64,000 nucleotides of DNA from Pseudobdellovibrionaceae bacterium (GTDB taxonomy: Bacteria; Bdellovibrionota; Bdellovibrionia; Bdellovibrionales; Bdellovibrionaceae), in the NCBI GenBank assembly GCA_019637875.1, contig JAHBUW010000013.1, forward strand, positions 62,001-126,000, written 5' to 3'. The notes under the pieces were generated by a model, which worked only from the letters and a program-made list of their open reading frames with translations, was not told the origin of the DNA and ran no database searches. Numbering within the stretch: the first letter of the stretch is position 1; each line of letters opens with the position of its first letter. The position numbers and the translations under genes were made by a program. Below are positions 8,847-12,668 of this stretch, piece by piece.

Positions 8847-10295
8847 ATGGGGTTAACAGAAGAGTGGTCAAAAGCCAAGTTCACGGCGGTCATCAGCGAT
8901 TTGCACCTGACCGAAGCGGAGCCCGTGAATCCCCGCTTCCCGCTGTGGAAGAAGTATAAAACCCGTGAGTTTTTCTTCGATCAGGTCTTTGGCGACTTCC
9001 TGAATGAAATCGAAAAGCGTGCCGGTGACGAACAAGTCGAATTGATCTTGAACGGCGACATTTTCGATTTCGACAGCGTGATGAAGATGCCCGACCAACC
9101 CGCTTTCCGGATTTCGAATCTGGAAAAGAAGCGGGGCCTGTTCGCGCGTCCCGAGCGTTCACAATTCAAAATTCAAGTCATCACGGATCACCACGCGGAA
9201 TTTTTCTGGCATTTGAGAAGTTTCCTAAGGCGCGGACATCGTGTCGTTTTCATCGTGGGCAATCACGACGTGGAACTGCACTTTCCCGAGGTGCAGTCGC
9301 ATCTACTGGACGTGCTGGATCCGGACGAGCGCGCGCGCGGCCGTATCCGCTTTTGTGAGTGGTTTTACATTTCAAACGGCGACACGTTGATCGAGCACGG
9401 GAATCAGTACGACCCTTACTGCGTTTGCGAAGACCCGGTGCAACCTTTCGCCCGTGGCTATAACTACAAGACGTTGCGGTTACCGTTCGGCAACATGGCT
9501 TGCCGATATATTCTGAATGGACTGGGATTCTTCAATCCCCACGTCGAATCGAATTACATCATGACGGTCACCGAGTACGTGAAGTTCTTCCTGAAGTACA
9601 TGGCCCGCGCGCAACCGCTGCTGATTCTGACGTGGCTGGGCGGTGCGTTCATGACGCTTCTGATGTCGATGAAAGATCGACTGTCGGTCGCGATCCGCGA
9701 TCCGTTGCGCATCGAGGACCGCATCGAGGAAATCGCCGCCCGGTCGAACGCGACGCCACGTATGGTGCGGGAGCTGAAAGAGTTGGCCGCCGAGCCCGCG
9801 ACCGGGGACATCTTCGCGATGGCCCGTGAGTTGTGGTTGGACCGCGCTTTGATCGTGTTTTTCGCCTTTTTCCTTATTTTGGAAGCGTTCGTGCTGATCA
9901 ATACGGTTTTTCACGTCTCGTTTTATTGGATGTTCATTCCCCTGTTCGCGATGCTCCCGTTTTTTCTTTTCTATAGCCAGTCGATCCAAAGTTTGGTTTC
10001 AGGCTATAAAGAACCCGATGAGCGCATCTTAAGCACGGCGGGTCAGATCACGAAAACGAACCGGATCGTGTACGGGCACACCCATATCATGCGCCACGAA
10101 ATGATCGGTTCCGTGGAGCATCTGAACTCGGGCTGCTGGTCACCGGCATTTTTGGACGTGGAGTGTACGCGCCCCATCGGCCAGAAAACCTTCGTGTGGA
10201 TCGAGCCCGAAGAGGAATATCGACGCGCCCACCTGTACCAATTTGCGGATGGCGCCATCCAAGAGATCAAAGCTTTGCCGCGGTCGGGCGGCTAA
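8847..10295 (+). CDS. Membrane-associated metallophosphoesterase
   Basis: A 482-residue product with the calcineurin-like phosphoesterase motifs in order: SDLHL, NGDIFD, GNHD, then EHGNQYDPY and the terminal GHTH, which form the dinuclear metal site. The set resembles LpxH-type UDP-2,3-diacylglucosamine hydrolases and related envelope phosphoesterases, but the protein is about twice as long. Hydrophobic segments near residues 255-270 and 330-375 lie between the GNHD and GHTH motifs and would anchor or dock it on a membrane. The substrate cannot be named. The ATG at 8847 has only a weak Shine-Dalgarno. Confidence 0.8.
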   Translation: MGLTEEWSKAKFTAVISDLHLTEAEPVNPRFPLWKKYKTREFFFDQVFGDFLNEIEKRAGDEQVELILNGDIFDFDSVMKMPDQPAFRISNLEKKRGLFARPERSQFKIQVITDHHAEFFWHLRSFLRRGHRVVFIVGNHDVELHFPEVQSHLLDVLDPDERARGRIRFCEWFYISNGDTLIEHGNQYDPYCVCEDPVQPFARGYNYKTLRLPFGNMACRYILNGLGFFNPHVESNYIMTVTEYVKFFLKYMARAQPLLILTWLGGAFMTLLMSMKDRLSVAIRDPLRIEDRIEEIAARSNATPRMVRELKELAAEPATGDIFAMARELWLDRALIVFFAFFLILEAFVLINTVFHVSFYWMFIPLFAMLPFFLFYSQSIQSLVSGYKEPDERILSTAGQITKTNRIVYGHTHIMRHEMIGSVEHLNSGCWSPAFLDVECTRPIGQKTFVWIEPEEEYRRAHLYQFADGAIQEIKALPRSGG

Positions 10296-10323
10296 CCACG
10301 CGCCGCGCATCGCGACTTTGGGT

Positions 10324-10352
10324 TTGCTTGGCCCGCTTTTGCGGTGTCAAAT
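10324..10352 (+). promoter_or_regulatory. Possible sigma70-type promoter for the histone gene
   Basis: TTGCTT (10324-10329), a 17-base spacer and TCAAAT (10347-10352) lie about 27 bases before the histone ATG. The elements are imperfect, and this is proposed from spacing and position only. Confidence 0.3.
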
Positions 10353-10378
10353 TCAACCCATTGGAGAAGGAGTCTTCC

Positions 10379-10573
10379 ATGGCAGAAGTTTTGGTTGTGA
10401 CAAGCAAAGTCAAAAAGTACATCAAAGAAAAAGGCGGAATGAACACTTCGGCTGAAACGATCGACGTGCTCAGCAAAGCGATCGAGCAACTGTGCGCAAA
10501 AGGCATGGACTCGGCGAAAGCGGACGGCCGTAAGACCGTTATGGCTCGCGATATCGTGATCGATCACCTGTAA
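10379..10573 (+). CDS. Bacterial histone-fold protein (Bd0055/HBb-like)
   Basis: A 64-residue, Lys-rich product whose ATG is preceded by a strong GGAGAAGGAG at 10362-10371. The pattern is one histone fold: helix 1 near VTSKVKKYIKEKG, the long helix 2 from SAETIDVLSKAIEQLCAKG, and the C-terminal RKTVMARDIVIDHL helix with the RKTV(M) motif typical of archaeal-type histones. It closely resembles the Bdellovibrio bacteriovorus histone Bd0055 as I recall it, which is an abundant nucleoid component reported to bind DNA in an unconventional way. It has no tails. Longer frames opening at 10163 and 10243 are not needed. It is likely expressed alone at high level. Confidence 0.9.
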   Translation: MAEVLVVTSKVKKYIKEKGGMNTSAETIDVLSKAIEQLCAKGMDSAKADGRKTVMARDIVIDHL

Positions 10574-10585
10574 TTTGGTTTTCAA

Positions 10586-10614
10586 CCGGCCGTCGTCTTC
10601 GGGCGTGCGGCCGG
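10586..10614. terminator. GC-rich hairpin between convergent histone gene and ligA
   Basis: Arms CCGGCCG (10586-10592) and CGGCCGG (10608-10614) form a perfect 7-base stem between the histone stop and the ligA stop. No clear T-tract follows on either strand, so termination is only suggested by position between convergent genes. Confidence 0.35.
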
Positions 10615-10616
10615 AT

Positions 10617-12668
<2,052 letters not shown>

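Follow-up and report, generated by a model that had tools for sequence, protein, structure and literature searches.

A histone gene of the Bd0055/HBb type beside ligA in a Pseudobdellovibrionaceae genome

The window analysed here, a 64,000-nt stretch of a Pseudobdellovibrionaceae genome, contains a forward-strand ORF whose 64-aa product, MAEVLVVTSKVKKYIKEKGGMNTSAETIDVLSKAIEQLCAKGMDSAKADGRKTVMARDIVIDHL, has no tails. As the first-pass annotation had it, this ORF is located between a phosphoesterase gene on the 5' side and ligA on the 3' side, with gatC, gatA and gatB lying beyond ligA (Table 1). The proposed start at ATG 10379 and its strong Shine-Dalgarno sequence (GGAGAAGGAG at 10363–10372) were also upheld. 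About 80 orthologues from other genomes have the same start residue or a start within 1–2 residues of it, and ATG 10379 is taken as the start because the in-frame residues 5' of it vary among relatives. An upstream GTG at 10163, which would give a protein of 136 aa, was rejected for that reason and because the Shine-Dalgarno sequence is positioned at ATG 10379. Judged from the sequence, the histone ORF is genuine and correctly placed, far beyond chance.

Table 1. Features of the histone locus, in window coordinates.
Feature	Position	Strand	Evidence or remark
Calcineurin-like phosphoesterase gene, upstream neighbour	8847..10295	+	PF00149; upstream in 48/76 loci
Shine-Dalgarno sequence GGAGAAGGAG	10363..10372	+	6 nt upstream of ATG
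Histone gene, 64-aa alpha3-type "bacterial dimer", Bd0055/HBb orthologue (by sequence)	10379..10573	+	ORF, phmmer, orthologues, contact residues, Foldseek
DNA contacts T8, S9, K10, K12 (codons 8–12)	10400..10414	+	HBb contacts (PMC11317129), identity, conservation
Loop 1 DNA contacts T23, S24, A25 (codons 23–25)	10445..10453	+	HBb contacts, conservation
RKTVMARD (codons 51–58): RD clamp R51-D58 and contacts K52, T53, R57	10529..10552	+	HBb residues
Hairpin (TTCG loop) in the histone–ligA intergenic gap	10586..10614		z -2.74
ligA, NAD+-dependent DNA ligase, convergent downstream neighbour	10617..12644	-	Convergent in 73/76 loci

The description of the product as a compact, Bd0055-like bacterial histone turned out to be an understatement. 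In a phmmer search of PDB sequences, the protein aligned end to end (residues 1–64) with Bd0055/HBb of Bdellovibrio bacteriovorus (UniProt Q6MRM1; PDB 8fvx, 8fw7, 8cmp, 9ezz and 9f0e), which has been crystallized with and without DNA, at 59 of 64 identical residues (92%, E = 3e-32). The two proteins are both 64 aa long, align without a gap and share a calculated pI of about 8.8. The five differences (window histone versus HBb: L14Y, Q20G, L40A, V43M and E44D) fall at sites that vary among orthologues, none of them at a published DNA contact. The neighbours also match those in B. bacteriovorus (kdesi locus L005), where a metallophosphoesterase gene lies upstream and convergent ligA and gatCAB lie downstream. 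On this sequence evidence the window protein is an orthologue of Bd0055/HBb from a genus of the Bdellovibrio family. The closest solved relatives by sequence after HBb were HTkC (E 5e-6) and HLp (E 1.6e-4).

The alpha3 "bacterial dimer" category has been defined by sequence clustering (PMC11390915), and the window protein clusters there by its 59/64 identity to HBb. It carries the RKTxxxD loop-2 motif with the RD clamp (R51 K52 T53 V M A R57 D58) and the alpha1 lysines and S9-K10 motif of the category (S9, K10, K12, K16), as well as a shortened alpha2 and a truncated alpha3 of 3–4 residues, as judged from the model and the gap-free alignment with HBb. The category also lacks the FtF tetramer residues R48 and N52 (FtF numbering), and these would be expected to be missing in the window protein too, given its near identity to HBb in that region. 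Three other classes were discarded: the DUF1931 doublet histones (PF09123; 18.3 bits against a cut-off of 21.8), since the protein has 64 aa and one fold instead of two; the ZZ histones, since just 8 residues precede the first helix and there is no N-terminal zinc finger; and the archaeal nucleosomal (HMf/HTk) histones, since the modelled alpha3 is a single turn as against a three-turn tetramerization helix. With PF00808 (CBFD_NFYB_HMF) the score was 21.1 bits, just below the gathering cut-off of 21.4, so that plain Pfam annotation would miss the protein; a PF00808 profile search of its own genome did not recover the gene, whereas a search with the protein as query did. The sub-threshold score is put down to the limited reach of a general model on so short a protein and is not taken as counter-evidence.

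The histone fold is a helix-loop-helix-loop-helix, and the "helix-strand-helix" core against which the first-pass annotation would have judged a structure prediction was a misnomer. An AlphaFold2 monomer model built with 51 orthologues places alpha1 at residues 9–19, alpha2 at 24–48 and a single turn of alpha3 at 56–58. In a Foldseek comparison of this model with the PDB, the best five matches were all HBb structures and were the sole matches below E = 0.001, with TM values of about 0.6 and rmsd values of 4.5–5.2 Å. The confidence of the model was moderate (mean pLDDT 74.8, pTM 0.52); like the TM value of about 0.6, this may reflect the modelling of a single chain taken from an intertwined dimer. 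The structures ranking behind HBb in the fold comparison were the face-to-face alpha3 histones of Leptospira perolatii (HLp, 9qt0) and Thermococcus kodakarensis (HTkC, 9f2c). Each has, like the window histone, a single short histone fold of alpha3 type, at 35–38% identity; both are tetramers, with about 60 bp wrapped by HLp (PMC12701072), whereas HBb is dimeric. Archaeal HMfA/HMfB share the RKTV loop and the RD clamp with the window histone, at a weak overall sequence match, and have a longer alpha2, a three-turn alpha3, a tetramer interface and a hypernucleosome (PMC10627809).

Closer comparison was made at the residues to which functions have been assigned in HBb, namely the DNA contacts of interface one (K12, T23, S24, A25, K52, T53, R57) and of a second interface (T8, S9, K10), the clamp D49-R51-D58 and the dimer core V11, L31, I35, L38 and I59 (Hu et al. 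2024, PMC11317129). The ten contacts, the clamp and the core residues are all identical in the window histone. Among 79 orthologues, S9, K10, K12, T23, K52, T53, R57, D49, R51 and D58 are invariant, T8 and S24 are each conserved in 78, and position 25 is occupied by A, S or G. Whether the Bdellovibrio DNA-binding mode is conserved in a more G+C-rich relative, a question raised in the first-pass annotation, can thus be answered affirmatively at the sequence level, the HBb contacts being kept here and in nearly all 79 relatives. The term "GC-rich" is appropriate in a relative sense only: the G+C content of the window is 56.6%, as compared with 42–50% in the compared loci of close relatives and 48% for the B. 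bacteriovorus kdesi locus.

HBb has been reported to be a dimer that bends DNA and binds it non-specifically, and deletion of its gene failed (PMC11317129); in B. bacteriovorus, Bd0055 ranked 12 of 2,125 proteins by abundance and topped the nucleoid fraction (PMC10627809). By orthology, the window protein is very probably an abundant homodimeric histone of the alpha3 "bacterial dimer" type that bends DNA without sequence preference. As in HBb, two chains would pair through their antiparallel alpha2 helices, and a basic top ridge (T8, S9, K10 and K12; T23, S24 and A25; K52, T53 and R57) would hold the DNA backbones at the minor groove, a grip expected to lack sequence preference. With so short an alpha2 and a one-turn alpha3, dimers would not stack into a hypernucleosome as judged from HBb; each would instead bend DNA locally in the manner of HU/IHF, with compaction of the nucleoid arising from the high copy number of dimers, and the gene would probably be essential.

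The "unusual DNA-binding geometry" attributed to Bdellovibrio histones in the first-pass annotation is in fact disputed, the same protein having been described as a sheath on straight DNA (Hocher et al. 2023) and as a bending dimer (Hu et al. 2024). In the former account, dimers bind end-on and form a sheath around straight DNA that is not bent, consistent with a DNA-bound crystal structure of Bd0055 and with the lack of FRET between the ends of a 147-bp DNA (PMC10627809); the residues contacting DNA at the straight-sheath interface are all kept in the window histone. However, the same contact was seen by Hu et al. in a different crystal packing together with the second, complementary interface T8-S9-K10, and bending was supported by solution and molecular dynamics (MD) evidence (PMC11317129). 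Bending is favoured here because this second interface, which it requires, is almost perfectly conserved: T8, S9 and K10 are kept in the window histone and almost everywhere else, which argues that the interface is in use and makes a straight sheath an unlikely arrangement.

Selection on the gene and its distribution were then considered across the order. In comparisons with the nearest relatives, dN was 0.04–0.09 and dS at least 1, giving a dN/dS of about 0.03–0.05 where dS was measurable, an approximate value for 64 codons; from these substitution rates, the histone is under strong purifying selection. The mean identity to the window protein across loci was 83% for the histone, 67% for gatB, 57% for the phosphoesterase and 56% for ligA. 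Across the order, 135 of 141 genomes gave a histone match, among them all 103 that are at least 90% complete; in about 5 of these 103 the match is a ZZ-type or diverged copy alone. Convergent ligA lies within 200 nt of the histone gene in 51 of 76 testable loci; since gatCAB and other genes also keep their order, this is taken to reflect conservation of the block, not a functional connection. The terms "ligA" and "synten" are both absent from the main text of Hocher et al. Two loci deserve separate mention. A metagenome bin labelled Streptomyces griseus contains the histone gene with the full Bdellovibrio-order neighbourhood of phosphoesterase, ligA and gatCAB (locus L039), a label that evidently does not fit this contig (CALQIT020000112.1). 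In a 93% complete genome, the ligA-adjacent histone match (L108, G128:C85) is interrupted by in-frame stops and has ambiguous sequence close to its start, which probably points to a gap in the assembly and not to a pseudogene.

The codon adaptation of the histone gene, calculated against 22 ribosomal protein genes from its own genome, was 0.787. Pieces of ribosomal protein genes averaged 0.733, and pieces of the same size from other window genes averaged 0.608, with 3.3% of the latter scoring as high as the histone. This is a codon bias typical of a highly expressed gene and fits the B. bacteriovorus proteomics. The suggestion that the gene forms its own expression unit was only partly sustained. 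The Shine-Dalgarno sequence is present, and the "possible promoter" could not be substantiated, a promoter scan of 10200–10700 having returned no sigma-70-type site and the upstream element of relatives (see below) being absent. A terminator scan of the same interval found no standard intrinsic terminator; as the 83-nt gap between the phosphoesterase and histone genes has no recognised terminator, read-through from the phosphoesterase gene is possible. The hairpin between the histone and ligA genes is stable, lacks a U tract on either side and was not reported by the terminator scan; it may form a shared 3' end for the two genes.

In Bdellovibrionaceae (L005, L090, L103–L105 and 26 of 78 loci), a conserved 36-nt element, TTGTCA-N12-TATGYAAnCCTTTT, was found about 30–50 nt upstream of the histone ATG. 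Element calls were made where the leave-one-out score exceeded those of all 100 shuffles of the locus, kinship between loci being ignored. Allowing up to 2 mismatches, the element matched once in genome G004 and once in G036, at the histone gene each time; in G016 it matched at the histone gene and, with 2 mismatches, at one other site, and there the reversed control pattern likewise produced two matches. No consensus pairs were found in an RNA structure analysis of the leaders of 18 relatives, and an Rfam search in this analysis gave no match. Because consensus pairs are missing and the distance to the ATG varies, the element appears DNA-like and not a riboswitch or a hairpin sequestering the Shine-Dalgarno sequence; on the sequence pattern, a promoter or operator is more likely than a leader RNA, with a spacing that differs from that of a standard sigma-70 promoter. 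Unlike these Bdellovibrio histone genes, the window gene lacks the element, the best score of the relatives' position weight matrix (PWM) on the window being -11.3 (p 0.25), no better than shuffles. One speculative and rather doubtful reading is that the element serves dedicated control of the histone in the Bdellovibrio family and that the window lineage lost or replaced it while the protein stayed almost unchanged, so that control was rewired.

The own genome of the window histone encodes further candidate nucleoid proteins. A second histone gene (P0002, 174 aa; L082:1465-1989, minus strand, G000:C15) has an N-terminal Cys/His finger and ordinary codon usage. Its histone domain shares 49% identity with the window histone and reads RKTVMDRD (D after VM) where the latter has RKTVMARD; from its sequence, P0002 is read as a ZZ histone. 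B. bacteriovorus likewise has a ZZ histone as a weakly expressed second histone (PMC11390915). A third own-genome match (G000:C7; 27% identity, E 1.04) contains a stop and was discarded as chance. In addition, four HU/IHF family proteins are encoded on G000 C1, C9, C14 and C20 (L086–L089), and these paralogues could share or dominate nucleoid packing. With these four proteins as the main packers of the lineage, the window histone would be a local regulator or a minor accessory histone fold, and the missing 36-nt element means that its expression may differ from that in other Bdellovibrionaceae. This is very unlikely, however, given a codon bias above that of ribosomal proteins, the strong Shine-Dalgarno sequence, an invariant DNA-contact surface and a B. 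bacteriovorus orthologue that is the most abundant nucleoid protein (PMC10627809) and shows no sequence specificity (PMC11317129). That the ORF arose by chance or encodes an unrelated small basic protein, as the PF00808 and DUF1931 scores just under their cut-offs might hint, has next to no probability, being already refuted by the sequence evidence of 92% identity to a solved histone, purifying selection and about 80 orthologues.

A different pattern was observed in seven small genomes of the order (1.4–2.0 Mb; G102–G104 and G123–G126), in which the singlet histone (L112, L113, L115, L116 and L118, also L114 and L117) is strongly diverged, at 35–44% identity. These singlet histones lack the RD clamp and R57, RKTVMARD being replaced by LKTVKANH or similar, and adjoin ligA in all five loci in which ligA is visible. 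These copies possibly represent a histone in the course of changing its function or its DNA-binding mode.

The HBb-type histone was already known, with a solved structure; the window protein adds another member, with little that is surprising, and on its own leaves the current view of bacterial histones as it was. For biophysical work, it provides a natural variant, somewhat more G+C-rich and with five substitutions. At the level of the order, the present analysis confirms the HBb histone as a near-universal, slowly changing and locus-fixed gene, whose HBb-type DNA-binding surface is unchanged across 42–57% G+C among the loci for which G+C was computed.
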